Shown here piece after piece: positions 6,502 to 23,877 of a stretch of 64,000 nt of DNA (its first letter is position 1; each line of letters starts with the position of its first letter). The stretch spans positions 1 to 64,000 of the forward strand of contig VBFH01000025.1 in the NCBI GenBank assembly GCA_005883575.1. Direction: 5' to 3'. Under the pieces are notes generated by a model, which worked only from the letters and a program-made list of their open reading frames with translations, did not search any database and had not been told where the DNA came from. The stretch comes from Chloroflexota bacterium (GTDB lineage: Bacteria; Chloroflexota; Dormibacteria; Dormibacterales; Dormibacteraceae). Both the position numbers and the translations under genes were made by a program.

Positions 6502-6513
6502 TGCCTTACCTCC

Positions 6514-7749: not shown

Positions 7750-8622
7750 CTACTTCACCGCCCCGCCGAAGTTGAATGCGCCGCTGAAATAGCGCGACAT
7801 GAACAGGTAAAGCACGATCACGGGCAGCGAGAAGAGAAGCGAGAAGACGGCGAGATCGCCGAACTTGAACAGCCCATGCGAGCCCATGAAGTTGTAGATC
7901 TCGACCGGACCCGGCTGATTTTCGGGGCTGTAGGTCAGGACGAAGGGGATGATGAAAGCGCCCCAGGCATTGATGAACGTGTAGATCGCGGTCACAGCGA
8001 TTCCGGGAACGGTCAGCGGCAGGACGACCTGGCGCAGGATCCGGAACGTGCTCGCGCCATCGATCGCAGCCGCATGCTCGAGCTCGAGCGGCACCGCGTC
8101 GATGAAGTTCTTCATCAGCCAGATGGCGAATGGCAGCGAGCTGGCGGCCAGAAAGAGGGCCGTCGTGTAAAGCGAGTCGAGCCAGCCCAGATAGACGTAA
8201 ATCTGGTACACGGGCACGACGAGCATCGAAACCGGGAGTCCGGACGCAAACAGGATCACGAGCATGAACGACCGCCTGAACGGGATGTGCATCCGGGACA
8301 GTGGATAGGCCGCGAGCAGTGCGAGCAACGTGGTGAGCACTGTCGTGGTGCCGGCCAGGATCAGGCTGCTGCGGAAAGAGCTGAGGGCGTCGGCCCGGCC
8401 GATCACGTCGGCGAAGTTGGCCAGCGTCGGCGTCGGGATCTTGATCGCCCAGTCGGGGTTGGCGTCGACGGAGGCGAAGACCATCCACAGCAGGGGGAGC
8501 AAGAAAAAGCAGCCGAGGAGGATGAGCACCACATTGGTTGCCAGCGCCGACACCGACACGCGGCGGTAGGGGACGACGATCAGCTCTTTGTCGGCCAGCC
8601 GCCGGGCCGCCACCGCACTCAT
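7750..8622 (-). CDS. ABC sugar importer permease, MalG/UgpE type
   Basis: A 290-residue inner-membrane protein starting at ATG 8622, overlapping the preceding permease stop (ATGA). Six membrane helices are predicted by eye. The EAA loop that contacts the ATPase is visible as ELEHAAAIDGASTFRILRQV, followed by LPLTVPGIA. It pairs with the permease at 8619-9512. A much longer open frame continues upstream in the same phase but is only antisense/off-frame reading of the neighbouring genes. Confidence 0.92.
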   Translation of the reverse strand: MSAVAARRLADKELIVVPYRRVSVSALATNVVLILLGCFFLLPLLWMVFASVDANPDWAIKIPTPTLANFADVIGRADALSSFRSSLILAGTTTVLTTLLALLAAYPLSRMHIPFRRSFMLVILFASGLPVSMLVVPVYQIYVYLGWLDSLYTTALFLAASSLPFAIWLMKNFIDAVPLELEHAAAIDGASTFRILRQVVLPLTVPGIAVTAIYTFINAWGAFIIPFVLTYSPENQPGPVEIYNFMGSHGLFKFGDLAVFSLLFSLPVIVLYLFMSRYFSGAFNFGGAVK

Positions 8623-9512
8623 ACCTGGCTCCTCGAGGCGCGGACGAACAGCAGCGAAAAGACGGCTCCGATCAGCACGAGAACCAGCGAGATCGCTGTG
8701 CCGTAGCCGAGCTGATGAAAGACAAACGCCTCCTGGTACACATAAAGCGGAAGCGTCATCGTCTCGATACCCGGGCCGCCCTGCGTCATCGCGTAGATGA
8801 GCGTGAACTCGGAGAGGTTGAGGATCGTGACCAGCAGCAGGTTGGTCACGATCGTCGGTTTCAGGAGCGGGAAGATCACCAGACGGTACCGGCGCCAGAC
8901 GGAAGCTCCCTCGACCTCCGCCGCCTCGAGCACCTCGGTCGGCAGGTTTCGCAGACCGGCCGAGAACACGAGCATCGAGAACGCGACGTTTCGCCACAGG
9001 TTCGCGAGCGACACGATGAGCATCGGCACCGCCACGAGAAAGTTTGTGTCCGTCTGTCGGAGCAGGATCGACAGCGTGCCGCCGGCCTGCGAGAACGCGT
9101 ACCAGACGAGGGCGACGGTGATCTCGGGCAGCACCCACGCGACGATGACGATCGAGCCGATGACCGCGCTGACCGAGACCAGGGCGTTCCGCAGGAGGAT
9201 GGCCAGGGCCATGCCTAGGACCGTCTGGCCGATGATCGCCGAGCCGACGACGAAGATGATGGTCAGCCACGACGACTTGATAAAGACGTAATCGCCCAGC
9301 ATCCGCGTGATGTTGTCCAGACCCGTGAAGTCGTAGGCGCGCGAACGCGAGCCGACCAGCGCGAGGTTCGTGAAGCCCAGGTAACAGGCGTAGAGGACCG
9401 GGAAAACGAACAGGACCCCGAGCAGGACGAGGGCCGGCGACAGCATTACCAGGCTCGACCACTGGAACCGCTCGCGGTCCAACCTCGGGCCCAAACCCGC
9501 CGCGACTGCCAA
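8619..9512 (-). CDS. ABC sugar importer permease, MalF/UgpA type
   Basis: About 297 residues with helices at SLVMLSPALVLLGVLFVFPV, SWLTIIFVVGSAIIG and SVSAVIGSIVIVAWVLP, and an EAA loop (EVLEAAEVEGASVWRRYRLV). The frame is open upstream but would then include promoter P2 and its operators, so TTG 9512 is chosen; GGAGGA ends eight bases before it. This is the first gene of the importer operon, transcribed from P2 with a leader of about 70 bases. It is the substrate-pathway partner of the 7750 permease. Confidence 0.9.
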   Translation of the reverse strand: MAVAAGLGPRLDRERFQWSSLVMLSPALVLLGVLFVFPVLYACYLGFTNLALVGSRSRAYDFTGLDNITRMLGDYVFIKSSWLTIIFVVGSAIIGQTVLGMALAILLRNALVSVSAVIGSIVIVAWVLPEITVALVWYAFSQAGGTLSILLRQTDTNFLVAVPMLIVSLANLWRNVAFSMLVFSAGLRNLPTEVLEAAEVEGASVWRRYRLVIFPLLKPTIVTNLLLVTILNLSEFTLIYAMTQGGPGIETMTLPLYVYQEAFVFHQLGYGTAISLVLVLIGAVFSLLFVRASRSQV

Positions 9513-9561
9513 CCTCAATTCCTCCGCAGGTCTGGCGGGACCGGGCTCGCGGCCCCGCCTT

Positions 9562-9617
9562 TGGAGCGTTCCACTGGAACGTTCCGTAATTCTCCGGGGC
9601 ACCGGCCCGAGCGTCAA
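9562..9617 (-). promoter_or_regulatory. Promoter P2 with two tandem LacI-type operators
   Basis: On the minus strand, TTGACG (9617-9612), a 17-base spacer and GAGAAT (9594-9589) form a promoter for the sugar importer. Two operators follow: TGGAACGTTCCG-type at 9575-9586 and TGGAGCGTTCCA at 9562-9573 (plus-strand reading). Their centres are 13 bases apart. Tandem placement suggests tighter repression of the importer than of the single-operator promoters; that is an inference. Confidence 0.72.
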
Positions 9618-9644: not shown

Positions 9645-10700
9645 CTAGGACGGGCGCGGGGCCGCGGTCGACCTTCGCGCGACGAGGTTGACGTCCACCA
9701 GCTTGCGCGTCGGCGGCCCTTTCAGCCTGCGTTCGATGCGATCGGCGATGGTGGCGATGCCGAGTCCCGCGAGCTCGTCCCGCGGCTGGGCCACCGTCGT
9801 CAGCGCGATCCGGGCAAGTCCGGCCATGGGCACATCGTCGAAGCCGACGATCGAGATGTCGTCCGGCACGTGCAGGTTCACGCGGTCCGCGAACTCCTGC
9901 AGCGCGATCGCGGCGACGTCGTTGGAGGCGAAAACCCCCGTGGCCCTGTCGGCGCCCGTGAACACGTCGAGTAGAGGCCGCTCCAGGCCATCTATGCGGG
10001 CGTGGTCCGACGGCGGCGACCAGCTGATCCTCAGCGGAGGGCCGATATGCGCCTCTTTCAGCGCCGCACAGTAGCCCACCCACCGGACCCGGTCCGACTC
10101 ATCTTCGAGCTCGGGGATCGAAAGGTACGCGATGCGCCGGTGGCCGGCCTCGATCAGGTGGCTGGTGCCGAGGCGACCGCCGAACTCGTCGTCGACCGAG
10201 ACGACATCCCCCCAGTCCGCGCCGCAGCTGACGAACACGGCCGGCACCTGATGCTGCATGACCTCGCGCATGGTGCGGGCATCCCCCGAGAACGCGAGGA
10301 ACACGATGCCGGCCACGCGGTGCTGGAGGAGGGTCTCTACTCCCGCGAGCTCGCTCTGGCTGTCGCCTTCGGTGTTGCAGAACATCGCGGTGTAGCCGCG
10401 CGCCGCCGCGTGCCGCTCCACGGACTTCGCCATCTCGGCGAAGAACGGGTTGGCGAGGTCTCCGACCACGACGCCCAGGATGCTCGTCCGCTGCTGCACG
10501 AGCTGGCGGGCAAGCACGTTCGGGCGATAGCCGAGCTCATCGATCGCGGCCCGCACCCTGTGCCTGGTCGCCTCGGACACGCCTGGCAGTCCGCGAACGA
10601 CGTTGGAGACGGTCGATTTGGACACACCGGCGTGGGACGCCACGTCGTGGATCGTCGGGTGCCTGCGCGCCGTGGCCGAATCGTGCGTGACGGCCGCCAT
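9645..10700 (-). CDS. LacI-family transcriptional regulator
   Basis: About 351 residues: an N-terminal HTH (TIHDVASHAGVSKSTVSNVV, about residues 15-34), hinge region ELGYRPNVLARQL, then a periplasmic-binding-protein-like effector domain (LGVVVGDLANPFFAEM … FASNDVAAIALQEF … VPDDISIVGFDD). ATG 10700 gives a normal LacI N-terminus; TTG 10730 is an alternative without benefit. It sits between the zinc dehydrogenase and the importer promoter, and is the obvious candidate to bind the TGGAACGNTCCA operators. The recognition helix (KST…N) differs from E. coli LacI (YQT…R), so classical lac-operator binding is not expected. Effector probably an inositol derivative. Confidence 0.92.
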   Translation of the reverse strand: MAAVTHDSATARRHPTIHDVASHAGVSKSTVSNVVRGLPGVSEATRHRVRAAIDELGYRPNVLARQLVQQRTSILGVVVGDLANPFFAEMAKSVERHAAARGYTAMFCNTEGDSQSELAGVETLLQHRVAGIVFLAFSGDARTMREVMQHQVPAVFVSCGADWGDVVSVDDEFGGRLGTSHLIEAGHRRIAYLSIPELEDESDRVRWVGYCAALKEAHIGPPLRISWSPPSDHARIDGLERPLLDVFTGADRATGVFASNDVAAIALQEFADRVNLHVPDDISIVGFDDVPMAGLARIALTTVAQPRDELAGLGIATIADRIERRLKGPPTRKLVDVNLVARRSTAAPRPS

Positions 10701-10732
10701 GTGAGCTGAAGGCAATGTTATTCGCGACAAGG

Positions 10733-10744
10733 GTGAGCGCTCAC
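10733..10744. promoter_or_regulatory. Perfect 12-bp palindrome upstream of the LacI gene
   Basis: GTGAGCGCTCAC overlaps the stop codon of the zinc dehydrogenase and lies about 32 bases upstream of the LacI ATG. It has the central CG typical of LacI-family operators and matches the core of the idealised E. coli lac operator, although the local regulator's recognition helix is different. Possible autoregulatory site; the overlap with coding sequence makes chance a real alternative. Confidence 0.4.
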
Positions 10745-11898
10745 GCCTTCATGACGGGATCCATCAAGACCTTCATCGCGCCCTCGCGCTGCGACAGCTC
10801 GATCGCTTCGGCCGCGCGCTCGAGCGGCATCCGGTGGGTGATGATCTCGGTCAGGGGCAAGCGGTCGAGATTGCGCACGAGCAGGTTCATCGCCGGGACG
10901 TAGGAGGTCGCCGTCTCGCCGCCGACGCCGATGACGCTGACGTTCTTGGTGCAGATGTCCGCGTTCGGGTTGATGCCCACCGGGCCCATGTCGACAAAGG
11001 TGCCTGCCTCGACCACCGTGCCGCCATAGCGAACCAGGTGCAGGCACTCCGGGAACGACTGGGCGACACCGGTGCAGTCGATGACGATGTCCGGACCTGT
11101 GTGGGTGTGCTCGCGGGCCTGATCGATGCGCTCTTTCTCGGTGGTCCTCGCCGCATTGATGGTGAGCGTCGCTCCAAAGCGCCGGGCGAGCTCGAGGCGC
11201 GATTCCAGGCGGTCGATCGCGATCAGCTTGCCGCTGCCCATGAGCCGCGCTTTCACGAGGTGGCAGAAACCGAGGGGTCCGACACCGACGATCGCCACCG
11301 ACTCGCCGAAGGCGCTTCCTCCCCACCCGGCGGTCAACATCCGCGCGCGGTCGAATCCGTGCGTCACCGCCATTACCTCAGTGAGCGCGGCCAGCTCGTC
11401 GGGCAGGCCATCGGGCACTCGGAAGAGCGGGGTCCCCGGGAGCAGGTACATGTACTCCGCCCATCCGCCGAACAGGTGCGGCGGGATCCCGGCATGCAGG
11501 CTGTTGCCGTAGTCCTGAAGGTTCTCGCAGAAGTAGTAGGGATAGTCGTTGAGGCAGAAGACGCACTGGCCGCACGGAACGTTGGCCGCAGGGACGATGC
11601 GGTCCCCCGGCCGCAGCGGTCGCCCTTCGCTGTCGGGGATGGAGTTCGAACCACCGATGGCTTCGATCACGCCGACGTTCTCATGCCCGCAGATCAGCGG
11701 ATAGGTGATCTCGCGTTCGTGGTCGGTGCCGGCGTACTGCTTCGACTCGCCGCGGTAGGTGTGCTTGTCGGTGCCGCAGATTCCCGAGTAGGTGACCTTC
11801 ATCAGGACCTCGCCCGGCGCCGGTTCGGGCAGCGGGAAACGCTTTACCTCGATGTGGCCCGGAGCCGTCATCACGGCCGCCCGGGCGGTCGCGCTCAC
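10741..11898 (-). CDS. Zinc-dependent medium-chain alcohol dehydrogenase (polyol/inosose dehydrogenase-like)
   Basis: 385 residues of the MDR superfamily. The catalytic zinc motif is CGTDKHTYRG and GHENVGVIEA; the structural zinc lobe is CGQCVFCLNDYPYYFC. The Rossmann segment is VAIVGVGPLGFCHLVKAR, and IAIDRLESRLELA carries the NAD-type Asp. GTG 11898 begins just after an operator-like site. Located between iolB and lacI in the iol operon, it could oxidise an inositol or inosose, comparable to the zinc dehydrogenase of the Thermotoga inositol route; this assignment is by context. Other polyol dehydrogenase functions are possible. Confidence 0.85.
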   Translation of the reverse strand: MSATARAAVMTAPGHIEVKRFPLPEPAPGEVLMKVTYSGICGTDKHTYRGESKQYAGTDHEREITYPLICGHENVGVIEAIGGSNSIPDSEGRPLRPGDRIVPAANVPCGQCVFCLNDYPYYFCENLQDYGNSLHAGIPPHLFGGWAEYMYLLPGTPLFRVPDGLPDELAALTEVMAVTHGFDRARMLTAGWGGSAFGESVAIVGVGPLGFCHLVKARLMGSGKLIAIDRLESRLELARRFGATLTINAARTTEKERIDQAREHTHTGPDIVIDCTGVAQSFPECLHLVRYGGTVVEAGTFVDMGPVGINPNADICTKNVSVIGVGGETATSYVPAMNLLVRNLDRLPLTEIITHRMPLERAAEAIELSQREGAMKVLMDPVMKA

Positions 11899-11919: not shown

Positions 11920-12723
11920 TCAGTCGAGCTGCCAGCGATGGTCGGCGTCGGTGGTGACCAGCCAGCGACGCACGGGGCCGGCCATCACGTTCAGGTAGTA
12001 GAGGTCGTACCCAGGACCAGCCGCCACAGGGTGATAACCGCGCGGGACCAGCACCACGTCGCCGTCGCGGACCTGGATCGCCTCGTCGAGCGATCGGTCG
12101 TCGGTGTAGACGAGCTGGACGGCAAAGCCCTCGGGCCGAGCCGTCCGGTGGTAGTACGTCTCCTCGAGGTAAGCCTCGCGCGGAACATCATCGGTGTCGT
12201 GCTTGTGGGGGGGGTAGCTCGACCAGTTGCCCGCGGGGGTCAGAACCTCGGTGACGAGCAGCGACTCCGCCGGACGGTCCTCCATCAGGATGTTGTGGAT
12301 CGTGCGCTCGGTGCGGCCGGAGCCACGCTTGAAGGGCCGGATCTCGGAGGCCTGAATCCGGGCTGGCTCGGCGCCGCGCGAGGCCGAGGCCCAGCACATC
12401 GCGAGCTCGCACACCTCGCTCGACGCTGTGATCTCGAGCTGCTGTCCCGGCGGCGCGTAGACCGCGTCGGGCGTGCCTTCGAAGACGCTGTTCCGCGCGC
12501 CTACGTCTTTCCAGGCCCGGGATCCAGCTGAGACGTCTGCCTGGCCCCTCAGCATCACGACGCAAACTTCTCGTGCTCCGGTCGACGGCCGGATTCCGTC
12601 GCCGCGTCGGAGCTCGTACACCTCAAAGCCGACATACGACCAGCCGGCCGATTCCGGGGTGACGATGGCCACGGGGCCCTCGCCCGCAGGCTTGCTTGGC
12701 CGGCGGAGGACGAGCTTCGTCAT
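11920..12723 (-). CDS. iolB: 5-deoxy-glucuronate isomerase
   Basis: About 267 residues, close to the usual IolB length of roughly 270. IolB converts 5-deoxy-D-glucuronate to 2-deoxy-5-keto-D-gluconate in myo-inositol catabolism. The cupin-type metal site is visible in YPPHKHDTDD, LEETYYHR and VPRGYHPVAAGPGYDLYYLN. ATG 12723 overlaps the iolD stop (ATGA) and removes an unrelated Arg-rich upstream extension. Its product would be phosphorylated by IolC, which is not found here. Good confidence from sequence motifs and the adjacent iolD. Confidence 0.92.
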   Translation of the reverse strand: MTKLVLRRPSKPAGEGPVAIVTPESAGWSYVGFEVYELRRGDGIRPSTGAREVCVVMLRGQADVSAGSRAWKDVGARNSVFEGTPDAVYAPPGQQLEITASSEVCELAMCWASASRGAEPARIQASEIRPFKRGSGRTERTIHNILMEDRPAESLLVTEVLTPAGNWSSYPPHKHDTDDVPREAYLEETYYHRTARPEGFAVQLVYTDDRSLDEAIQVRDGDVVLVPRGYHPVAAGPGYDLYYLNVMAGPVRRWLVTTDADHRWQLD

Positions 12724-14591
12724 ACGTGCCAGCGGCGCCTGGCGAGCCCGCGCTCGTGCTCCTCGCGCGCGTTCTTGACGTCGGCCGACTCCGCGACCTC
12801 GGCGACCGGCACCTCCCACCAACTGTCGTAGCTCGGCACCCCGTCGTAGCGGTCGACCATCACGTGGATCACCACGGTGCGGTCGATCTTCTTCGCGGCC
12901 ACAAGCGCGTCGCGAAGGTCTTCGATGTTCCGGGCGCGAAACACGTGCGCGCCAAGGCCCTGCGCATTCAAAGCGAGGTCGACTGGGAGACGCTCCCCGT
13001 TGCTGTGCGCCGAGTCATCCCCGAGCGAACCGTCGGAGCGATATCGGTAGCGCGTGCCGAAGCCTTCGGTTCCCTTGGAGCGGGACAGCCCCCCAATCGA
13101 GGCGAAGCCTTCGTTGTCGACCAGGACGATCGTGAGCTTCGCGCGCTCCTGGATCGAAGTCGCGATCTCCTGCGACATCATCAGGTAGGAACCGTCGCCG
13201 ACCATCACGTATATCTCGCGCGAAGGATCGGCGAGCTTGACACCAAGCCCGCCGGCGATCTCGTAGCCCATGGTCGAGTACCCGTACTCGACGTGGTAAC
13301 CCTTGGCGTCGCGCGTTCGCCACAGCTTGTGCAGGTCGCCGGGCATCGAACCCGCCGCGCAGACGACCACGTCTCGCGGGGCCGAGAGGTCGTTCACCGC
13401 GCCCAGGACCTCCGACTGCGCCGGCAGCGGCGTGTGCCCGAGGTTGTAGAGGCGCGAGACCTCGCGGTCCCAATCGGCGCGCAGCGCGTCGCACTCCTTC
13501 CGGTAATCGCCGGCCACGCTCCAGCGCTGCAGCCTCTCGTCGAGCGCTTCCAGCGTCGCGCGCGCGTCACCGGTCAGCGCCAGCCCTCCAAGCTTGTGAC
13601 TGTCCAGCTCGGCGACGTTGACGTTGATGAACCGCACCTCGGGGCTCTGAAATGCGGTGTGTGACGCCGTGGTGAAGTCGGTGAACCGCGTTCCCAGGCC
13701 GAGGACCAGATCGGCTTGCGTGGCGATGCGGTTGGCGGCGAGGGTGCCGGTCGCTCCGACGCCGCCTAGCGCGCCCGGGTGGTCAAACGGGAGCGACCCT
13801 TTGCCTGCCTGCGTCTCGGCGACCGGGATCCCCGTGCGCCGCACCAGACGCTTCAAGACCTCTACGGCCTCCGAGTAGATGACCCCGCCACCCGCGACGA
13901 TCAGCGGACGTTTGGCCGCGCGGATGAGCTCGGCTGCTCGGTCCAGCGACGGTCTGTCCGGTGCGACGCGGCCGATATGCCAGATGCGCCGCTCGAAGAA
14001 CTCTTCCGGATAATCAAACGCCTCCGTCTGCACGTCCTGCGGTAGCGCGAGCGTGGCGGCGCCGGTATCCGCGGGGCTCGTCAGCACGCGCATCGCGGCC
14101 AGCGCCGCCGGCACCAGCTGCTCCGGCCGCTGAACGCGGTCGAAGTATCGCGAGACCGGTATGAAGGCATCGTTCACGCTGACGTCGCCGCGCCATGGCG
14201 ACTCGAGCTGCTGCAGCACAGGGTCAGGCCGCCGGGACGCGAAAACGTCGCCCGGGAGCAGAAGCACGGGAACACGGTTGACGGTCGCGGCTGCCGCGCC
14301 GGTGACCATGTTGGTGGCTCCCGGACCGATCGAGGTCGTGCACGCAAGGGTTGCGAGGCGATTGCGCGCTCTGCTGAAACCCGCCGCCGTGTGCACCATC
14401 GCCTGTTCGTTGCGGGCCTGGTAGTAGGTCATCAGCTCGGGGTTTTGGGCGAGCGCCTGGCCGACGCCTGTCAGGTTGCCGTGGCCGAAGATGCCAAAGC
14501 AGCCTTCGATGAACCGGTGCTCGCTGCCATCGCGTTCGACGTATTGAGCCGAGAGAAAACGAACGAGCGCCTGAGCCATAGTCAGTCGCAT
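12720..14591 (-). CDS. iolD: 3D-(3,5/4)-trihydroxycyclohexane-1,2-dione hydrolase (TPP-dependent)
   Basis: 623 residues, near the 630-640 typical of IolD. It hydrolytically opens the inositol ring to 5-deoxyglucuronate. The N-terminal TPP-binding domain has YQARNEQAMVH with the cofactor-activating Glu and the CTTSIGPGATNM segment. The C-terminal domain carries the GDGSY…VDNEGF thiamine diphosphate/Mg motif at about residues 458-490. Start ATG 14591 gives MRLTMAQALVRFL as in known IolD. It is coupled to iolB by ATGA. Confidence 0.95.
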   Translation of the reverse strand: MRLTMAQALVRFLSAQYVERDGSEHRFIEGCFGIFGHGNLTGVGQALAQNPELMTYYQARNEQAMVHTAAGFSRARNRLATLACTTSIGPGATNMVTGAAAATVNRVPVLLLPGDVFASRRPDPVLQQLESPWRGDVSVNDAFIPVSRYFDRVQRPEQLVPAALAAMRVLTSPADTGAATLALPQDVQTEAFDYPEEFFERRIWHIGRVAPDRPSLDRAAELIRAAKRPLIVAGGGVIYSEAVEVLKRLVRRTGIPVAETQAGKGSLPFDHPGALGGVGATGTLAANRIATQADLVLGLGTRFTDFTTASHTAFQSPEVRFINVNVAELDSHKLGGLALTGDARATLEALDERLQRWSVAGDYRKECDALRADWDREVSRLYNLGHTPLPAQSEVLGAVNDLSAPRDVVVCAAGSMPGDLHKLWRTRDAKGYHVEYGYSTMGYEIAGGLGVKLADPSREIYVMVGDGSYLMMSQEIATSIQERAKLTIVLVDNEGFASIGGLSRSKGTEGFGTRYRYRSDGSLGDDSAHSNGERLPVDLALNAQGLGAHVFRARNIEDLRDALVAAKKIDRTVVIHVMVDRYDGVPSYDSWWEVPVAEVAESADVKNAREEHERGLARRRWHV

Positions 14592-14604: not shown

Positions 14605-15711
14605 CTAGGACGGGTCTGGAAGCATCACGTCTCTTACCAGGACCGCGAGGTCGGTGCATGCGGCGATGAACTGGCGCAGCGTGCGCACGGTCGGCCCGTA
14701 CGAGTCGAACTCTTCCACCGAGAGGCCGTCCTCCGAGTACGCACGGCGGAAGTCCGGGAAGCGGGCAATGAGCTGCCCCACCACCTTGGGGTCGACCGGG
14801 TCGTCGATCCGCGGCCGGACCTCGATGTCACTTGCGTTGAACCGTTTTTGCCATGCGGACGGTGGCGAGACGACGGCGTCCGCGCCTATGAGCTCGCTCC
14901 AATGCATGTGATTGCGGAATGCCGCCGACAACAGCCGCAGCCGGTAGCCACGCTTGCGGAAGATGCCGTACGTCTTCTTGAAGACGGCCACCCCTGCCCA
15001 CTCCAGGTCGCCCGGATCGATGGTGATGTCGCGCTTCTCGAGCAAGACCTTCAGCCAGTCATCGAGCCTGCCGACCATGATCGTGCAGACCGGGCCCATC
15101 GACTCGACGTCCTTGCCCTCGCTGTCCCGCCGCCGGAGGCCACGTTCGACTGCTTCTGCGACCGCGATGCACTGGGGAAGCGTGAAGCAAACCGTCGCAT
15201 TCACGCTCATGCCCCGAGACGTCGCCTCTTCGATCGCCACGATGCCCGCGCTGGTGGCCGGGATCTTCACGATCATGTTCGGCGCAAGGCGGTTGAACGC
15301 GGTCGCGTTCTCGACGATGGCGCCCGGATCGCGGAAATACCTGGGGTCGGTCTGGATCGACAGGCGTCCGTTACGGCCGCCATGCGCCGCAAACGCCGGC
15401 TCGAGGAGCTTGGCGGCCCTCACCGACATCTCTTCGACGAGCTTCCAGCCGATCTGGTCCTCGGTCGCGCCCGGCAGCTCGCGAAGCAGGCTCTCGATCC
15501 GCGGCCGCCAGAGCGCGATCTCCTTCTTGAGGATGCCAAGCGCGATGACCGGGTTGCAGGTGGCCCCGACCGCGCCGTTTTCGATCGCGTACATGAGCTC
15601 GTCTATGTCAGCCGAGTCGTTCCACAGGCACGTCGGCGTGGTCTGCGTCATCTCGTGGAGCGGACTCTTGTAAACGAGCTTCGGGCGTGCTGCTGCCATT
15701 TCGGTCTTCAC
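14605..15711 (-). CDS. Transaldolase-family protein inside the iol operon
   Basis: 368 residues of the transaldolase superfamily. Family landmarks are VGATCNPVIAL near the N-terminus, LSIQTDPRYFRD and the Schiff-base region MIVKIPATSAG (Lys near residue 143), then SVNATVCFT. It is diverged from the ordinary transaldolase encoded at 47236, with a longer C-terminal half. It lies between iolD and iolA with gaps of 10-13 bases, the place where the pathway needs an aldolase making malonic semialdehyde for IolA. No iolJ-type aldolase is present, so it may substitute; that is a hypothesis. GTG 15711 or ATG 15699 could be the start. Confidence 0.82.
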   Translation of the reverse strand: MKTEMAAARPKLVYKSPLHEMTQTTPTCLWNDSADIDELMYAIENGAVGATCNPVIALGILKKEIALWRPRIESLLRELPGATEDQIGWKLVEEMSVRAAKLLEPAFAAHGGRNGRLSIQTDPRYFRDPGAIVENATAFNRLAPNMIVKIPATSAGIVAIEEATSRGMSVNATVCFTLPQCIAVAEAVERGLRRRDSEGKDVESMGPVCTIMVGRLDDWLKVLLEKRDITIDPGDLEWAGVAVFKKTYGIFRKRGYRLRLLSAAFRNHMHWSELIGADAVVSPPSAWQKRFNASDIEVRPRIDDPVDPKVVGQLIARFPDFRRAYSEDGLSVEEFDSYGPTVRTLRQFIAACTDLAVLVRDVMLPDPS

Positions 15712-15721
15712 ATTACGTCGA

Positions 15722-17155
15722 TCACCACCGCGTGACGACGACCTTCTTGCGTGTGTAGAAATCGATGCCGTCCGTGCCGTGGACGTGGAGGTCGCCGTAA
15801 AAGGAGCCCTTCCACCCGCTGAACGGGAAGAAGGCGAAGGGCTGCGCGATCGGCACGTTGATGCCCGTCATGCCCGCCTCGACCCGCTCGCGAAACTCGC
15901 GGGCGGAGCGCCCGGACTGCGTGAAGATCGTGGCCATGTTGCCGAGCGCCATCTGATTGGCCTGCCCGATCGCGTCGTCGAGCGTGGCCGCGCGGGCAAC
16001 CGAAAGGACGGGGCCGAAGATCTCCTCGTGCCCCACCGTCATGCCCGCGGTGACGCGGTCGAGGATGGTCGGGCCAAGGAAGAAGCCGGGCCGGGACATC
16101 TCGTGGCGGCCGTCGACAACCAGCTGCGCGCCTTCCGCGACCCCCTTGTCGACGTAGCCCGCAACCTTGTCCCGGTGTTCGGCCCGGATGAGGGGGCCGA
16201 TCTGGACGCCCGGCTGGTCGCCGGGCCCGACGACCATCCTTGACGCGGCGTCCCTAAGGGGGTCGAGCAGCGCGTCAGCCGCGCGCCCCACCGCGACCGC
16301 CACCGATCCGGAGAGGCAGCGCTCGCCGGCGTTGCCGAACGCAGAGTTGAGGATCGCCGGTACGGTCAGCTCGAGGTCGGCGTCGGGCATGATCACGATG
16401 TGGTTCTTGGCGCCGCCGAGCGCCTGGACGCGCTTGCCGTTCGCCGCCGCGGTCTCGTAGACGTGGCGGGCCACCGGGGCGGATCCCACAAAGGAGATCG
16501 CCGCGACCTTCGGGTGCCGGAGCAGTGCGTCCACGGCCTCACCCGCGCCATGGACCAGGTTCAACACTCCCTCCGGAAAGCCCGCTTGGAGAAACAGCTC
16601 GGCCAGCCGCTGGCCGCCGAGCGGAGTGCGGTCCGACGGTTTGAGCACGAACGTGTTGCCGGCCACAACGGCGAGCGGGTACATCCACAGCGGGATCATC
16701 ACGGGAAAGTTGAAAGGCGGGACCCCCGCGCAGACGCCGATCGGGTAGCGATACAGGTCCTGGTCGACGCCGCCTGAAACGTCGCGCAGCGTCCGGCCCT
16801 GGAGAAGGGTCGGCGCCCCGCAGGCGAAGTCCACGACCTCGATCCCGCGGCGAACCTCGCCGCGTGATTCCTCGAGCGTCTTGCCGTGGTGACGCGTCAC
16901 GATCGAGGCCAGCTCTTCGAAGTGCTCTTCGAGCACCGCCTTGTAGCGAAACATCAGGCGCACACGCTCCATCAGCGCGGTTCGCGACCAGGATGGAAAC
17001 GCGGCGGCTGCGGCGGAGACGGCTGCGTCGACCTCGCGGTCCGTGGAAAGCGGCACCTGCTCGATGACCTCGCCCGTCGCGGGGTTGAAGACGGGTAGAG
17101 ACCGCGTGCCATCCGCTGGCGCCCTCCACTCCGAACCGATGAGGTTGGGGATCAT
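15722..17155 (-). CDS. iolA: (Methyl)malonate-semialdehyde dehydrogenase, CoA-acylating
   Basis: 477 residues of the aldehyde dehydrogenase superfamily, MMSDH/IolA subgroup. It converts malonic semialdehyde to acetyl-CoA (or methylmalonic semialdehyde to propionyl-CoA). Seen are NAD-domain motifs VPPFNFPVMIPLW and VLKPSDRTPL, the glycine-rich FVGSAPVARHVY, and the nucleophile in FGNAGERCLSGS (Cys near 282). NFPVMIPLWM and GMTGINVPIAQPFAFFPFSG are characteristic of the MMSDH subgroup. ATG 17155 has GGAGG nine bases upstream. It provides the last step of the inositol pathway. Confidence 0.93.
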   Translation of the reverse strand: MIPNLIGSEWRAPADGTRSLPVFNPATGEVIEQVPLSTDREVDAAVSAAAAAFPSWSRTALMERVRLMFRYKAVLEEHFEELASIVTRHHGKTLEESRGEVRRGIEVVDFACGAPTLLQGRTLRDVSGGVDQDLYRYPIGVCAGVPPFNFPVMIPLWMYPLAVVAGNTFVLKPSDRTPLGGQRLAELFLQAGFPEGVLNLVHGAGEAVDALLRHPKVAAISFVGSAPVARHVYETAAANGKRVQALGGAKNHIVIMPDADLELTVPAILNSAFGNAGERCLSGSVAVAVGRAADALLDPLRDAASRMVVGPGDQPGVQIGPLIRAEHRDKVAGYVDKGVAEGAQLVVDGRHEMSRPGFFLGPTILDRVTAGMTVGHEEIFGPVLSVARAATLDDAIGQANQMALGNMATIFTQSGRSAREFRERVEAGMTGINVPIAQPFAFFPFSGWKGSFYGDLHVHGTDGIDFYTRKKVVVTRW

Positions 17156-17183: not shown

Positions 17184-18449
17184 TCATCGGCGACTATCCA
17201 AATCTTGGGCCAATGCGCGACCCGGCTGCATCACGGGAGCCTCGCGGCGCTGCACAAGCACCGCGGCCACGAGAGCCGCCAGGAGGGCCGCGGCGGCGTA
17301 GGCGAAGAACGCCGACTGGATGCCGGCGACCGACCAGACGACGCCTCCGATGATCGGGCCGGCGGTGACGCCGATGTTCTCGAACTCGCCGAACAGGCCC
17401 ATGTACAGGGCGTGGCGTCGCCGAGGCATCGATTCTGCAATCCACGCGGTCGCGGCGGGCCAGATCAAGGCCGCGCCGACAGCCCGGATCGCGGCGGCGG
17501 CGATCACGCCCGCGAAGGTGCCCGCGACCGCGTATCCGATGTAACCGGCGGCGCAGATGATCCCACCCACGATCATGGTGGGCTTGCGGCCCCATCGGTC
17601 GGATGCGTTTCCACCCGGCACGAGCAGCACGCCTCCGATGAGGCCGACGGCGAGCATCGCGGAGCCGGCCGCCGCGGCGGACAGCTGCAGGCGGTTGGTC
17701 ACGAGCAGCGGCAGCAGGGCGAGCTCGCCGCCCAGACCGACCTGGACGAGCAGTACGAGGCTGGCGGTGATCGCCAACACGCGCACGACGCTCGGCTCGG
17801 CAACAGCTGTGTCCTCGCGCACCTCGTTCTGCCGGCTGCGGTGGTCGACGATCGTGAATCCCCGAAAAACCGGGAAGACGAGCACCGCGGACACCAACGG
17901 CAGGACCGCCGCGACCAGCATCACCTCGCGAATCGGGAAATGATCGATCAGCGCCCCGCCGACGCCCGCGCCCACGGCCTCAGCGATCACCCACTGCGAC
18001 GCGAGCAGCGCCAGGCCCGTTGCGCGGAGGTGTGCGTGAAGGGCGGTGCCTATGTAAGAGCGGGCGATCGGCCCGACCGCGACCATCATCCCCGAGGCGA
18101 GGAAGTACCCGGCGGCGATCAACGACACCGACCGGACCTGCGATACGGCCACGATGAACGCGCCGTAGAGCAGCTGGGACGCGACCAGGGGAGCGCCGTA
18201 TCCGAAGCGGTCCGCGATGAGTCCCCAAAGCCATTCGAAAACGAACATGCCCAGGCCGAACATCGACAGCGTCAGCCCGATCTCGTTCGGCGTCGTTCGC
18301 AGCTGCCGCAGCTCGAGCGGGAGGCAGATTTGAAGCACTCCTGTCGCGAGAGTCGAGAACACCAGGGCGGCGATGATGCCGCCGCTGCGGCTGCGGACGA
18401 GTGACTCGGTGATGCGCGAACCATAGGCCAAGATGTATTTGCCTCTCAC
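17184..18449 (-). CDS. Major facilitator superfamily transporter
   Basis: 421 residues with about twelve hydrophobic segments. MFS signatures are visible: LIADRFGYGAPLV in the loop between helices 2 and 3, and NASDRWGRKPTMIVGG in the equivalent second-half position. The start is GTG 18449. It is the promoter-proximal gene of the minus-strand iol operon (28 bases before iolA), so it may import or export a cyclitol or an intermediate. The drug-efflux subgroup is an alternative. Confidence 0.88.
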   Translation of the reverse strand: MRGKYILAYGSRITESLVRSRSGGIIAALVFSTLATGVLQICLPLELRQLRTTPNEIGLTLSMFGLGMFVFEWLWGLIADRFGYGAPLVASQLLYGAFIVAVSQVRSVSLIAAGYFLASGMMVAVGPIARSYIGTALHAHLRATGLALLASQWVIAEAVGAGVGGALIDHFPIREVMLVAAVLPLVSAVLVFPVFRGFTIVDHRSRQNEVREDTAVAEPSVVRVLAITASLVLLVQVGLGGELALLPLLVTNRLQLSAAAAGSAMLAVGLIGGVLLVPGGNASDRWGRKPTMIVGGIICAAGYIGYAVAGTFAGVIAAAAIRAVGAALIWPAATAWIAESMPRRRHALYMGLFGEFENIGVTAGPIIGGVVWSVAGIQSAFFAYAAAALLAALVAAVLVQRREAPVMQPGRALAQDLDSRR

Positions 18450-18579: not shown

Positions 18580-19545
18580 GTGCGACCGATGAAGGACGCT
18601 GAACGGCCGCGTCTCGGCGTGGTGACCGAAGCATTCGCGAACCGCCCCCTGATCGAGGTCATGGACTGGCTCAGGGCTTCCGCGCCCGCGATCACCGACC
18701 TCGAGATCGGCGCGGGCGGCTACGCGCCGACGGGGCACTGCGACCTGCCGCTGCTGCTGCGCGACGCCGCGGCCCGCAAAGTCTGGCTCGACGAGATCGA
18801 CGCCCGTGGTCTCAGGATCGCTGCGCTCAACGTGTGGGGCAACCCGCTGCATCCCGACGAGTCGATCGCCGCCAGGCACGACGGCGACTTGCGTGGCGCG
18901 GTCCGGCTCGCGGCGCTACTCGGCGTCGACCGGGTCGTCGCGCTGGCGGGCTGCCCGCCCGGCGCCGTCGGTGACAGGACGCCCCATTTCGCCGGTGGAG
19001 GGTGGCTGCCCTACCTGGAGTCGATCCACGACGCGCAGTGGGATCGCTGGGTCGAGCCCTACTGGTCGGACGTAGCGGAGTTTTCGGTCCGCGAGCATCC
19101 GCAGCTGCTCATCTGCCTCGAGCTGCACCCTGGCACCGTCGTCTACAACGTCGAAACCTTCCAGCGACTGGCAGCGCTCGGCGACTCGCTCGCCGCCAAC
19201 ATCGACCCTAGCCACTTCTTCTGGATGGGCATGGATCCGCTGGCGGTCACGCTCGCCATCGGCGACCGGGCCGGCCACTGCCACGGCAAAGACGTCAAGT
19301 TTGCCCCGGCCAACCTTGCCCTGAACGGACTACTCGACCGCCGCTGGCCGCTCAGCCCCGACGCCATGCCCTGGAACTTCGCCGTCGTGGGTCGCGGCCA
19401 TGACGCCTCCTGGTGGACGCGATTTCTCACCCAGCTGAAGGCGCATGGCCGCGTCCAGACTGTCGCCATCGAGCACGAGGACCCCTTCGTCGACGCCCAA
19501 CAGGGCATCCCCGAGGCCGCCGAGTTGCTCGCCCGTGCTCGGTGA
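18580..19545 (+). CDS. Xylose isomerase-like TIM-barrel protein, paralogue 2
   Basis: About 320 residues, obviously paralogous to the protein at 1439: shared DLEIGxGGY, LNVxGNPLHP, ELHPGT, NIDPSHFFW, GHCHGKD, VGRGHD and IEHEDPF. The Glu/Asp/His pattern of metal-dependent sugar isomerases/epimerases is kept. GTG 18580 and ATG 18589 are both possible starts. It is transcribed away from the MFS gene and lies just upstream of promoter P4. No local operator motif was found in its own 130-base upstream gap, so its regulation may differ from paralogue 1. Confidence 0.82.
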   Translation: MRPMKDAERPRLGVVTEAFANRPLIEVMDWLRASAPAITDLEIGAGGYAPTGHCDLPLLLRDAAARKVWLDEIDARGLRIAALNVWGNPLHPDESIAARHDGDLRGAVRLAALLGVDRVVALAGCPPGAVGDRTPHFAGGGWLPYLESIHDAQWDRWVEPYWSDVAEFSVREHPQLLICLELHPGTVVYNVETFQRLAALGDSLAANIDPSHFFWMGMDPLAVTLAIGDRAGHCHGKDVKFAPANLALNGLLDRRWPLSPDAMPWNFAVVGRGHDASWWTRFLTQLKAHGRVQTVAIEHEDPFVDAQQGIPEAAELLARAR

Positions 19546-19557
19546 CGTCCTCGGCTG

Positions 19558-19601
19558 TTGACACCATCCGGGCTTTCGTATAGGGTCGGTGGAACGTTCC
19601 A
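19558..19601 (+). promoter_or_regulatory. Promoter P4 with LacI-type operator O4
   Basis: TTGACA (19558-19563), a 17-base spacer and TAGGGT (19581-19586) are followed after three bases by the perfect palindrome TGGAACGTTCCA (19590-19601). This is the best copy of the shared operator. It drives the Gfo/IolE operon at 19623-23748. Confidence 0.78.
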
Positions 19602-19622
19602 ACATCGATCAGCGGGGTGACA

Positions 19623-20753
19623 ATGGCCGGCCGGCTGAAGGTAGGGGTCATCGGGTGCGGCTTGATCGCTCAGGTCATGCATCTCCATTACCTTCGGGAG
19701 CTCGAAGACCGATTCGAGATCAGCGCGGTCTGCGACGTCTCGGAGGAGGCCCGAGCGGCCTGCGCCAGGCGCTTTGGAGCTCCCGAGCAGTTCGCGACCT
19801 GGCAGGAGCTGATCGCACGGCCGCTAGACGCGGTGCTGGTGCTGACCTCGGGCAGCCACGCCCCCATCGCGATCGCCGCGGCCAAGGCCGGGATTCACGC
19901 TCTGGTCGAAAAGCCGATGTGCTTTTCGGTCGCGGAGGGCCGGGCGATGATCGACGCCGCGGAGGCGGCTGGCACCGTGCTGATGGTCGGCTACAACAAG
20001 CGGTACGACCCGGCCTACGCGCGGCTGGCCGAGGAGGCGGGTACTCTCCGTGACCTCCGCCTGCTGAGGATCACGACCCTCGAGTCCCCGATCGAGCCCT
20101 ACGTCCAGCACTACGACCTGCACCGCGGTGCGCCGCTGCCGCAGTCGCTTGCCCAGTCGCTCCGCGACGATGACGAGGCGCGTATCGATGCCGCTGTCCC
20201 CGACGCCGATCGGCTGTCGCGCTGGGCGTATCGCAACATCCTGCTCGACAGCCTCGTGCATGAGCTCAACGCCATGCGAGGGGTCATGGGTGAACCCGAA
20301 AGCCTGGAATTCGCGGACATTCGCGAAACCGGCCTGACCGCGATCTTCAAGTACGGATCTGCGCAGTGCATCCTCGCGTGGATCGACCTTCCCGAAATCG
20401 CCCGCTACTCGATGGAGTTCGCCTTCTACTCGCCGGAGCGCAGGGTAACCCTCGCCTTCCCATCCCCCTTCTTGCGCAGCATGCCCACGCTGCTGATCAC
20501 CGAGGACGGCCAGGCGCATTCACCACGCGCCTCGAGGACGGAAGAGGTCGCATCATATAGAGAGAGCTTCAAGGAAGAGCTCGTGCACTTCCATGAGTGC
20601 GTGACCACAGGAAAGCGCCCGATCACATCAGGCGTCGACGCGCTGCACGACATCGCCCTATGTGAGGCAGTGGTCACCGTGCATCGAGGCCGCCACGCCC
20701 TCGCGCAGCCGTCAGAGCCGGCGATGGCGACCGCGCCCCGCGAACGGCCGTGA
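19623..20753 (+). CDS. Gfo/Idh/MocA family oxidoreductase 1
   Basis: About 376 residues. N-terminal Rossmann motif GVIGCGLIAQVMH, conserved EKP motif (LVEKPMCFS, about residue 97) and NKRYDPAYARL, followed by the C-terminal alpha/beta dimerisation domain. Such enzymes oxidise or reduce sugars and cyclitols with NAD(P). ATG 19623 has GGGG five bases upstream; GTG 19617 is an alternative. First gene of the P4 operon and coupled by GTGA to the IolE-like gene. The insert QSLRDDDEARIDAAVPDADR is not typical and may affect substrate choice. Probable inositol/inosose dehydrogenase. Confidence 0.86.
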   Translation: MAGRLKVGVIGCGLIAQVMHLHYLRELEDRFEISAVCDVSEEARAACARRFGAPEQFATWQELIARPLDAVLVLTSGSHAPIAIAAAKAGIHALVEKPMCFSVAEGRAMIDAAEAAGTVLMVGYNKRYDPAYARLAEEAGTLRDLRLLRITTLESPIEPYVQHYDLHRGAPLPQSLAQSLRDDDEARIDAAVPDADRLSRWAYRNILLDSLVHELNAMRGVMGEPESLEFADIRETGLTAIFKYGSAQCILAWIDLPEIARYSMEFAFYSPERRVTLAFPSPFLRSMPTLLITEDGQAHSPRASRTEEVASYRESFKEELVHFHECVTTGKRPITSGVDALHDIALCEAVVTVHRGRHALAQPSEPAMATAPRERP

Positions 20754-21664
20754 CCGAAACGCAGAAGATTGCCATCGCCAACGCGCCGGTCAGCTATGGC
20801 GCGTTCGAGCTGACAGTCGGCATGGTTCCCGGCGTCCCCGACGGCGACACGGTCCTGGATGAGGTCGCCAGCGCGGGATACTCCGGGATCGACCTCGGCC
20901 CGCTCGGCTACTTCGGGTACGGCGAGGATCTCGCGTCGAGCCTGGCGCGGCGAGAGCTGGCACTGTCTGGCGGCTTCTTCGAACTGCCCTTCACGGATCA
21001 CTCCAGGATGCCCGCAGCGCTGCGCCAGCTCGGCTCGCTGCTCGATGTCTTCGACGCGGCCGGTTCGAAAAACGGCATGAAGCCAAAACCCACCCTCGCC
21101 GACATCGGCAGCGACCGGCGTCGAGCCCGCCCCGGTCAGGCCGCGACGGACCGTTCCCTGGGCTTCGACGACGAGTCGTGGCGGCGATTCGCCGAGGGCG
21201 TGGAGATGGCCGCGGGGTGCTGCCGCGAGCGTGGATACGAGCCGACCTTCCACCACGAGACCGGCACCAACATCGAGGCGCCCTGGGAGATCGAAAAGGT
21301 GCTCGAGCTGACTTCGATCGGACTCTGCCTCGACACCGGGCATCTTCTGCTCGGTGGCGGCGAACCGGTACGCGCGATGCGCGAATGGCGGGAGCGGATC
21401 AATCACCTGCATCTCAAGGACGCCCGAAGGTCGGTCGTCGAGGAGATCGTCCGGGAGGCGGCGCCGGTCGATGAGATCTGGCGAAGGCAGGCCTTCTGCC
21501 GATTGGGCGCGGGCGACCTCGACGTCGACGCCGTGCTCGAGCTAATCCGCCGCTCGTACTCCGGCTGGATCGTCGTCGAGCAGGACGTCCTGCCCGACCC
21601 GCATGGAACAGCCGCCGCGGACCAACGCGCCAACCGCGAATACCTCACTGCCCGAGGGTTCTGA
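20750..21664 (+). CDS. iolE: Inosose dehydratase-like TIM-barrel protein
   Basis: 304 residues. The N-terminus KIAIANAPVSYGAFE matches the start of IolE proteins, which dehydrate scyllo-inosose to the diketone used by IolD. Metal-ligand-type residues appear in TFHHETGTNIE, GLCLDTGHLLLGG, NHLHLKD and VVEQDVL. Start GTG 20750 overlaps the previous stop. A segment around residues 100-130 (GMKPKPTLADIG…) is longer and more polar than in typical IolE. With iolA, iolB and iolD on the opposite strand this completes the ring-opening half of the pathway. Confidence 0.85.
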   Translation: MTETQKIAIANAPVSYGAFELTVGMVPGVPDGDTVLDEVASAGYSGIDLGPLGYFGYGEDLASSLARRELALSGGFFELPFTDHSRMPAALRQLGSLLDVFDAAGSKNGMKPKPTLADIGSDRRRARPGQAATDRSLGFDDESWRRFAEGVEMAAGCCRERGYEPTFHHETGTNIEAPWEIEKVLELTSIGLCLDTGHLLLGGGEPVRAMREWRERINHLHLKDARRSVVEEIVREAAPVDEIWRRQAFCRLGAGDLDVDAVLELIRRSYSGWIVVEQDVLPDPHGTAAADQRANREYLTARGF

Positions 21665-21667
21665 CTC

Positions 21668-22582
21668 GTGGCGCCGCTCAGGATCGGTCTGGCCGGTGCG
21701 GGCCGGATGGGCCGCAACCACCTGCGGGCCCTTGTCCCCTCGGCCGACGTCAAGGTGACGGCGATCGCCGAGCCCTCAGAGAACGCCCGTGGCCTGCTTT
21801 CGGGCGGGGACGCGGCGGTGTACGGAGAGCTCGACGACATGCTCGAGGCCTCCGCCATCGACGCCGTGATCGTCTGCGTGCCGAGTGATCTGCACCTCCA
21901 AACGGTCAAGCGCCTGGTCGCTTCGCACATCCCGACCCTGTGCGAGAAACCGGTCGGCGTCACAACCTTCGAGGCGCGCGAGGCGGCGACGCTCGTGAGC
22001 GCGGCTGGCCTGCCTTTCCAGGTCGGATTCTGGCGGAGGTTCGTACCGGCGCTCAAGCGATTGCGCGAGCGCATCGCGGCCGGCGAGCTGGGCCGGATCT
22101 ACTCGGTCGCGAACTTTCAGTGGGACGGAGAACCGCCTGGCGCTAGTTTCCGCGCCCACAGCGGCGGCATCTTCGTCGACATGGGGGTGCACGAGTTCGA
22201 CCAGACGCGCTGGCTGGTGGAGCAGGAATTTGGCCGGATCATTTCGCTCGCCTCAGGGGTCGCGACCGAGCCCTCGGTCGACCCCGAAAGCGCCCACGCC
22301 ATGGCCGAGCTGTCGGGCGGGACGACCGCGGTGGTCTCGCTCGGGCGCAGGTTCCCCCTGGGCGACGTGTGCAAGGTCGAGGTGTTTGGGACGAGGGGCG
22401 CGGAAGAGTGCAAGTTTCTGTGGCCGCCGACGGCCGACGACACCTTTTTCACCGCGCTGCGCACCCAGGCCGAGAGCTTTGCGCGGCACGTGCGTGGCGG
22501 ACCCCTGGAGGGCGCGAGCGCGGATGACGCGGCCGCGGCGCTCGACGCGGCAGAGCGCGCGGCGCAGGCGGTCGGGGCGTGA
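21668..22582 (+). CDS. Gfo/Idh/MocA family oxidoreductase 2 (inositol 2-dehydrogenase-like)
   Basis: 304 residues with Rossmann motif GLAGAGRMGRNHLRAL and TLCEKPVGV. GFWRRFVPALKRLRE and VDMGVHEFDQTRWL contain the Lys/Asp/His-type catalytic region seen in inositol 2-dehydrogenases (conserved D and H in MGVHEFD). It is the shortest of the three tandem paralogues. GTG 21668 lies three bases after the iolE stop, and its own stop overlaps the next start. The best local candidate for IolG, but not distinguishable from scyllo-inositol dehydrogenase by eye. Confidence 0.85.
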   Translation: MAPLRIGLAGAGRMGRNHLRALVPSADVKVTAIAEPSENARGLLSGGDAAVYGELDDMLEASAIDAVIVCVPSDLHLQTVKRLVASHIPTLCEKPVGVTTFEAREAATLVSAAGLPFQVGFWRRFVPALKRLRERIAAGELGRIYSVANFQWDGEPPGASFRAHSGGIFVDMGVHEFDQTRWLVEQEFGRIISLASGVATEPSVDPESAHAMAELSGGTTAVVSLGRRFPLGDVCKVEVFGTRGAEECKFLWPPTADDTFFTALRTQAESFARHVRGGPLEGASADDAAAALDAAERAAQAVGA

Positions 22583-23748: not shown

Positions 23749-23774
23749 AGCTCCATCTCACACGGTGGGGAGGT
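23723..23774 (+). repeat. Imperfect hairpin plus 11-base direct repeat at the operon end
   Basis: Arms 23723-23733 and 23737-23747 pair over 11 positions with one mismatch and a three-base loop, straddling the stop of the last Gfo/Idh gene. GGTGGGGAGGT, part of the right arm (23736-23746), recurs at 23764-23774. No T-run follows. It may be a weak terminator or mRNA-stabilising structure just ahead of promoter P5. Confidence 0.5.
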
Positions 23775-23784
23775 CACGAGATCC

Positions 23785-23829
23785 TTGACGGTGCGGCGGG
23801 GTTGACCTATGGTTCTGGAACGCTCCAGA
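23785..23829 (+). promoter_or_regulatory. Promoter P5 with extended LacI-type operator O5
   Basis: TTGACG (23785-23790), 17-base spacer and TATGGT (23808-23813) precede the 16-base perfect palindrome TCTGGAACGCTCCAGA (23814-23829). Same architecture as P4. It serves the permease gene at 23878, giving a leader of about 55 bases. Confidence 0.75.
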
Positions 23830-23877
23830 AAGCGCGTTTTTGATGTTCTTTTTCTCGCTCTTTTAGGGGAGGAAAGC

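Follow-up and report, generated by a model that had tools for sequence, protein, structure and literature searches.

A transaldolase-family enzyme that may take the place of the kinase and aldolase of inositol catabolism in Dormibacterota and other bacteria

The window analysed here is the whole 64,000-nucleotide stretch of contig VBFH01000025.1 from a bacterium of the Dormibacteraceae. Read along its minus strand, it encodes in order an MFS transporter, IolA, a transaldolase-superfamily protein (TALx), IolD, IolB, a zinc-type dehydrogenase, a LacI regulator and an ABC transporter. The features are as follows.

5092..9617, minus strand: sugar ABC transporter with a binding protein, an ATPase and two permeases (SBP_bac_1 and ABC_tran/MalK-type domains; the permeases were assigned by place and sequence only)
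9645..10730, minus strand: LacI-type regulator (assigned from its own sequence and conserved place, with no family search)
10741..11898, minus strand: zinc-type dehydrogenase, candidate inositol or inosose dehydrogenase (IolM model, 149 of 450 bits; HpnZ-type model, 177 of 328 bits)
11920..12723, minus strand: iolB, 5-deoxy-glucuronate isomerase, which makes the proposed TALx substrate (TIGR04378, 333 bits; cut-off 205)
12720..14591, minus strand: iolD, trihydroxycyclohexane-1,2-dione hydrolase (TIGR04377, 918 bits; cut-off 715)
14605..15711, minus strand: TALx, transaldolase-superfamily enzyme, proposed to cleave 2-deoxy-5-keto-D-gluconate (DKG) (PF00923, E 2e-38; predicted fold, Z 34.5; active site, 96/96)
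15722..17155, minus strand: iolA, CoA-acylating (methyl)malonate-semialdehyde dehydrogenase (MMSDH) (TIGR01722, 599 bits; cut-off 448.5)
17184..18449, minus strand: MFS transporter on the far side of iolA (PF07690)
18580..23748, plus strand: divergent cluster of a TIM-barrel gene, a Gfo/Idh gene, the iolE-like gene and two further Gfo/Idh dehydrogenases (Pfam)
20750..21664, plus strand: iolE-like TIM-barrel protein, candidate inosose dehydratase (TIGR04379, 135 bits; under the cut-off of 290)
47236..48336, minus strand: ordinary transaldolase, used for comparison, outside the operon (Glu, Ser and Phe retained at three positions changed in TALx)

The TALx reading frame is complete, encodes 368 amino acids and begins with GTG. 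The original prediction placed the gene at these coordinates without giving a strand, and described gaps of 10–13 bases to its neighbours. The frame is intact on the minus strand, where the TGA of iolA is followed after 10 bases by the GTG of TALx, and the TAG of TALx after 13 bases by the ATG of iolD. The ATG of iolB at 12723 overlaps the iolD stop codon; this start is inferred, the listed open reading frame extending to 12822. The genes predicted to be iolA, iolB and iolD all exceed their NCBIfam cut-offs, whereas the gene described as iolE-like is only a weak match. The inositol cluster core (iolB, iolD, iolE and iolC) is thus incomplete, with iolB and iolD over cut-off, the iolE-like gene below it and iolC absent. 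Since iolB, iolD and iolA all pass their thresholds and the TALx gene is flanked by iolD and iolA, the gap is one of a single step, and this was counted in favour of substitution. The window neighbours that were scanned (not all were) are inositol-type genes, the question asked having been that of a sulfoquinovose cluster.

Among the further neighbours, the zinc-type dehydrogenase gene is also kept near the TALx loci of relatives, and the divergent cluster (18580..23748) stays close to TALx in several of them. The TIM-barrel gene at 18580 scores only 21 bits with NCBIfam models, weaker than the iolE-like gene at 20750. For the Gfo/Idh gene at 22579–23748 on the plus strand, the best model is that of levoglucosan dehydrogenase (298 bits; cut-off 650). 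The divergent cluster (18580–25518) may serve a 3-keto-sugar or levoglucosan-type route and not inositol use. An Rfam scan of the whole window gave zero matches, and the inverted repeats examined around the operon included no convincing operator.

The original prediction held that iolC and iolJ were missing, and that their presence elsewhere in the genome under the same operator would count against a substitution. When the whole genome was searched for both, none was found over cut-off. The IolC model picks up three PfkB kinases, of which the highest-scoring reaches 144 of the 300 bits required. That this protein is a hidden IolC was considered and rejected: the KDG-kinase model gives it more bits (266, although short of that model's own cut-off of 440). 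The best IolC-like kinases of four other TALx genomes (G046, G001, G005 and G003) also score higher with the KDG-kinase model, whereas in G019 and G055 such a kinase has IolC as its best NCBIfam model, but at only 149 and 144 of 300 bits. As to the aldolases, the whole genome has no match to the class II family PF01116 at E 1e-10, to DUF2090 (PF09863) or to the Cgl0159 type (PF22649); these three types define the scope of the search, and class I aldolases of PF01791 fall outside it. The absences are strong without being absolute, because the assembly is 95.5% complete.

The description of TALx as a diverged member of the transaldolase superfamily was upheld. Its sole Pfam match is TAL_FSA (PF00923, E 2e-38). 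The best NCBIfam model, a transaldolase subfamily, gives 109 bits where 367 are required; other transaldolase models (67 vs 234 and 51 vs 396 bits) and the fructose-6-phosphate aldolase-type FSA model (39 vs 246 bits) also fall short. TALx thus falls outside the named families of transaldolase and FSA. An AlphaFold2 model (pLDDT 83, pTM 0.85, with residues 1–11 and 22–34 below 50) predicts a transaldolase-type TIM barrel, and the solved structures closest to this model are transaldolases (Z 34.5, rmsd 2.5 over 318 residues, 22% identity). Elsewhere in the genome a normal transaldolase is encoded at 47236..48336, as had been predicted; TALx is about 29% identical to it. A fusion of transaldolase and glucose-6-phosphate isomerase, lying beside a transketolase-like gene on contig C86 (L004), is the second canonical transaldolase of the genome. 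In a family tree, TALx forms one group (support 90/75) apart from the ordinary transaldolases. Escherichia coli TalB and FsaA have very long branches in this tree, so their position is unsure.

The predicted Schiff-base motif MIVKIPAT is present at residues 146–153, and its lysine, K149, corresponds to TalB K132 in 96 of 96 TALx sequences. Also retained are N35, N154 and T156 of TalB (N53, N171 and T173 in TALx) and the arginines R181 and R228 (R215 and R266). TalB D17 is matched to D32 of TALx from its conserved LWNDSAD context. Four positions are changed: E96 to Q120, S176 to T210, F178 to M212 and S226 to A264. All of these residues, retained and changed, are invariant in the 96 sequences, including the signature E96Q, S176T and F178M. 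The ordinary transaldolase of the same genome and the transaldolase/isomerase fusion retain Glu, Ser and Phe, and TalB also has the Glu. In the MAFFT alignment, TalB is gapped at D17 and FsaA at three positions, and those cells are not evidence.

Q120 of TALx aligns with Q59 of FSA, the catalytic water site. M212 sits at the position of TalB F178, to which we take FSA Tyr131 to be equivalent, the alignment being gapped there; this proton-shuttling tyrosine is absent from TALx. The Gln alone therefore does not make TALx an FSA, and for want of a Tyr131 counterpart the choice between release and transfer of the bound unit is unresolved. Residues organizing the catalytic water were reported, in the part of the source available, to interconvert aldolase and transaldolase activity (PMC13259622). 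The phosphate site of TalB is described, in a source likewise available in part, as consisting of two Arg and one Ser (PMC3962226). By inference, R215 and R266 of TALx bind either the DKG carboxylate or an acceptor's phosphate group.

The distribution of TALx was determined in 61 Dormibacterota genomes, namely that of the window and those of 60 relatives sharing its genus, family or class. TALx was counted as present at 75% identity or more, so that G045, with a relative of only 32%, was not counted. Fifteen genomes have TALx, the 14 besides the window genome at 75–84% identity to the window gene. The iolD gene occurs in 25 of the 61: 14 genomes have both genes, one (G055) has TALx without iolD and 11 have iolD without TALx. 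IolC over cut-off was found in 10 of the 61 and in none of the 15 with TALx. It occurs in nine of the 11 iolD-only genomes and in G044, which has no iolD match; in G027, also iolD-only, the IolC next to iolD is broken into two frames, and in G054, the last of this group, none was detected. The aldolases follow the same division, a Cgl0159 or DUF2090 aldolase being found in 0 of 15 TALx genomes and 11 of 11 iolD-only genomes. The Cgl0159 type occurs in 10 of the 61, all iolD-only (in G027 as a fragment of 28.5 bits; cut-off 27), and the one iolD-only genome without it, G029, gave three matches to DUF2090. That family was also found in G032 and G039, from which both iolD and TALx are missing, and PF01116 only in G045 and the TALx genome G055. 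Thus relatives that lack TALx pair IolC with an aldolase of the Cgl0159 or DUF2090 type in place of IolJ.

By Fisher tests, TALx is associated with iolD (p = 2e-6), and is set against IolC (p = 3e-6; the split IolC of G027 scored as present) and against the Cgl0159 or DUF2090 aldolases (p = 2e-7). These tests ignore kinship. In a tree of IolD that left out the second, long-branched IolD of G019, TALx and the aldolase were exchanged at least twice within the phylum, on the starred branches and both times in the expected direction. With only two independent pairs a sign test cannot reach significance, and the genome counts are not independent. Another tree, with the second IolD of G019 kept, has 70 rows and shows five changes among three states. 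In G015 and G017, iolA abuts iolD with no TALx between them, and G022 has an iolB–iolD block without TALx; all three carry TALx elsewhere in the genome, 76–77% identical. The function of TALx therefore seems to be needed wherever its gene lies.

A scan of named genomes yielded 239 loci with a relative. The best 80 of these, 67–85% identical, belong mostly to Acidobacteriota and Dormibacterota; the labels Myxococcota, Actinomycetota (Acidimicrobiales), Spirochaetota, Planctomycetota and Verrucomicrobiota each apply to a single member, with the caveat that bins may be misassigned. Neighbours at these 80 loci, labelled by BLAST matches to window genes, are iolB-type (44), Gfo/Idh (43), iolD (41), LacI (37), iolE-type (36) and iolA-type (20). 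At least one of iolA, iolB, iolD and iolE was observed in the fetched stretch at 58 of the 80, and as an immediate neighbour at 28. None was present at the other 22, many of which are short contigs; four (L121, L149, L166 and L169) are full 21-kb stretches. No aldolase is among the Pfam-scanned members of the 40 largest neighbour families of these 80 loci, and three weaker kinase or aldolase types lie near TALx at no more than about two loci each. Linkage of TALx to inositol genes is thus a feature of the family as a whole.

Fifty TALx genomes from the best 80 loci, chiefly of Acidobacteriota, were searched whole. They represent 46 non-Dormibacterota loci (those left out being chiefly short contigs) and four Dormibacterota, and one of them (L126) is G055 of the 61. 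The iolD gene is present in 39 and absent in 11. According to the original prediction, clusters that consistently hold both systems would have refuted the substitution. This is not what was found: TALx and IolC exclude each other in the 61 Dormibacterota, and the same check found them together in only two of the 50 other TALx genomes, where IolC is over cut-off, and on one Clavibacter plasmid.

The substitution is not universal, since TALx and the IolC route are found together in three cases, which are genuine counterexamples. In Anaeromyxobacter oryzae, IolC is encoded by a long open frame within an iol operon, and TALx lies at a distance of about 14 kb, where a second ABC transporter adjoins it. 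G093 is a TALx genome that also has IolC over cut-off. On the Clavibacter plasmid pCI3, one cluster contains iolB, iolC, iolD, a TALx of 55% identity and an aldolase whose annotation is deoxyribose-phosphate aldolase. In a further group of four Dormibacterota genomes, G107–G110 (L122, L126, L128 and L134; G108 is G055), the gene after TALx is IolB-like (two were scored, at 182 and 189 bits; cut-off 205) and the genome has no iolD. These exceptions imply that the role of TALx goes beyond substitution, or that in these genomes it takes part in an additional route. A second, non-iol context was observed at L116, L117, L118 and L121 and in G015/G017, where TALx is followed by a TIM-barrel epimerase-like gene; at L117, an ABC transporter ATPase was seen near this pair.

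DKG, the product of IolB, is HOOC-CH2-CHOH-CHOH-CO-CH2OH, and a retro-aldol reaction between its C3 and C4 yields malonic semialdehyde and dihydroxyacetone (DHA). Its C3–C4 diol is D-threo and adjoins a hydroxymethyl ketone. Fructose and xylulose share this configuration, which is the one that transaldolases and their kin act on. Transaldolase and FSA handle unphosphorylated DHA units. Phosphorylation is required by DHAP-dependent aldolases and not by the transaldolase superfamily, which is why IolC would accompany an aldolase. The most probable reading, to which we assign a probability of about 0.7, is that TALx is a class I (Schiff-base) aldolase or transaldolase that replaces IolC and the DKG-6-phosphate aldolase and acts on unphosphorylated DKG. 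K149 would form a Schiff base with the C5 ketone and the C3–C4 bond would break; malonic semialdehyde would leave, to be consumed by IolA. The DHA unit remaining on the enzyme would either be freed as DHA, which DHA kinase or glycerol kinase would phosphorylate, or be handed to a sugar-phosphate aldehyde. That TALx fills in for the missing C–C cleavage, as originally predicted with the suggestion that the substrate might be unphosphorylated, is supported by genome context with few exceptions. What TALx acts on, the reaction it catalyses and what becomes of the DHA unit are inferred, and no activity has been measured.

With this substrate unchanged, TALx could be a true transaldolase that does not free the DHA unit but moves it to glyceraldehyde-3-phosphate to form fructose-6-phosphate, like the sulfofructose transaldolase of sulfoglycolysis, which we regard as possible but somewhat less than an even chance. 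Transaldolases are the closest solved structures, both TalB phosphate-binding arginines are retained (R215 and R266 in 96/96), and a sulfo-SFT pathway with a non-phosphorylated donor and glyceraldehyde-3-phosphate provides a precedent, judging from the available part of that report (PMC11968277). However, the catalytic Glu is replaced by Gln, as in FSA, and the Ser of the phosphate site by Ala (A264). A Dak1-type DHA kinase occurs in merely eight of the 15 TALx Dormibacterota (40 of the 61 overall), as transfer would allow, but its lack is uninformative, since glycerol kinase is near-universal and could phosphorylate DHA: GlpK-family matches (E <= 1e-100) occur in 14 of the 15. The presence of DHA kinase and glycerol kinase thus does not separate aldolase from transaldolase. 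At two Acidobacteriota loci (L158 and L164), a glycerol kinase over cut-off adjoins the TALx/iol cluster together with a glycerol-3-phosphate dehydrogenase-like (GlpD-type) gene, the latter scored in L158 only; such genes are as expected if DHA is released. Should TALx transfer the unit, the result would be a kinase-free inositol pathway in which malonic semialdehyde and fructose-6-phosphate are formed with no ATP spent at that point. This pathway, which remains a tentative and rather unlikely proposal, would span Dormibacterota, Acidobacteriota and scattered members of other phyla.

It is more doubtful that TALx acts on another step or substrate, such as another inositol-derived keto acid or a keto sugar of the nearby Gfo/Idh and TIM-barrel genes, while DKG is phosphorylated and cleaved by unlinked enzymes of broad specificity, such as a KDG kinase together with an aldolase of the KDPG type or of class I. 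In its favour, TALx accompanies a complete IolC route in Clavibacter, A. oryzae and G093, at some loci without iol genes TALx lies beside a TIM-barrel gene and ABC transporters, and KDG-kinase-like PfkB proteins are present, those of G019 and G055 having IolC as their best model at about half the cut-off. Such a role leaves unexplained, however, why TALx excludes IolC or the aldolases that go with it through at least two exchanges in Dormibacterota, and why iolB and iolA accompany TALx at so many loci. If TALx were just the usual transaldolase of pentose phosphate metabolism, placed in the operon by chance, the fold and the lysine would fit, but this explanation was rejected as very improbable: TALx fails every transaldolase cut-off and groups apart, it has lost the catalytic Glu96 and the Phe178 that ordinary ones keep, and the genome already has an ordinary transaldolase and the fusion protein. 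Cleavage of DKG by TALx thus remains the preferred reading, and many soil bacteria seem to finish inositol breakdown with a transaldolase-like enzyme, not with a kinase and an aldolase.

Inositol is a common plant compound, and the inositol of phytate is an abundant carbon source in soil. A literature search, to which preprints and most subscription papers were not open, gave no account of a TALx-type transaldolase with inositol catabolism and no paper on Dormibacterota with inositol. DUF2090 fused to IolC was proposed earlier as an alternative aldolase for this step, according to the accessible part of that paper (PMC9007349). One large survey takes iolB, iolC, iolD and iolE as the core of an inositol cluster, and the words 'transaldolase' and 'Acidobacter' are absent from its main text, the extent of the source available here (PMC9430895). 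As far as this source goes, such surveys require all four genes, so clusters without iolC are scored as incomplete (PMC9430895). If TALx acts as proposed, a pathway gap is closed in Dormibacterota and Acidobacteriota by a further unrelated solution beside IolJ, DUF2090 and the Cgl0159 type, and a family hitherto named just 'transaldolase family protein' gains a function. The textbook inositol pathway would have a shorter, undescribed form, and the Glu-to-Gln change used by engineers to turn transaldolase into aldolase would have a natural example.

Among characterized enzymes, transaldolases of the actinobacterial and Neisseria type (PDB 3r5e and 3clm) are the nearest in predicted fold (Z 33–34.5, 318–331 residues aligned). 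They have in common with TALx the Schiff-base Lys, the Asp, both Asn, the Thr and Arg181, but are only 22–24% identical to it; TALx has Gln, Thr and Met for Glu, Ser176 and Phe178 and is iol-linked. FSA (E. coli FsaA) shares the superfamily and the Gln at the acid/base water position (Q59), but with 220 amino acids it is much shorter than TALx (368), which lacks its Tyr131. In the engineered TalB variants E96Q and E96Q/F178Y (PDB 4rz5, 4rz6 and 9qpk), the Glu-to-Gln change is the one found naturally in TALx, whereas position 178 is Tyr in the double variant and Met in TALx. Transaldolase-like proteins of Shinella megaplasmids and of G045, 31–32% identical to TALx, share its Gln/Thr/Met signature but retain Ser226 (Ala in TALx), and no iol genes were seen in their clusters. 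The gene of this sister group lies with a class II aldolase and a HAD hydrolase in both, accompanied by DhaK/DhaL in G045 (L035, 7396–11925) and by an acetoin-dehydrogenase-type complex on the Shinella plasmid (L238, 6796–18313). It is another undescribed transaldolase-like enzyme, which perhaps releases DHA.

The known routes through IolC (with IolJ, DUF2090 or Cgl0159) share with TALx the proposed net step, DKG to malonic semialdehyde and a C3 unit. They require ATP and a kinase first, their aldolases have folds unrelated or distantly related to that of TALx, and they are found in relatives instead of it. TALx belongs to none of the DKG-6-phosphate aldolase families (PF01116, PF09863 and PF22649), PF00923 being its only Pfam match, so that the likeness claimed is one of function alone. 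By analogy, the closest pathway counterpart is the sulfofructose transaldolase (BmSF-TAL, PDB 8bc3; SftT). It belongs to a short, FSA-size family (about 220 amino acids) of a different pathway, with 18% identity and Z 18.7 over 197 residues (a phmmer match of 77 residues, E 5e-8), but it likewise splits an unphosphorylated C6 intermediate of catabolism, yielding a DHA unit together with a C3 aldehyde that is charged at one end, as TALx would do with DKG.
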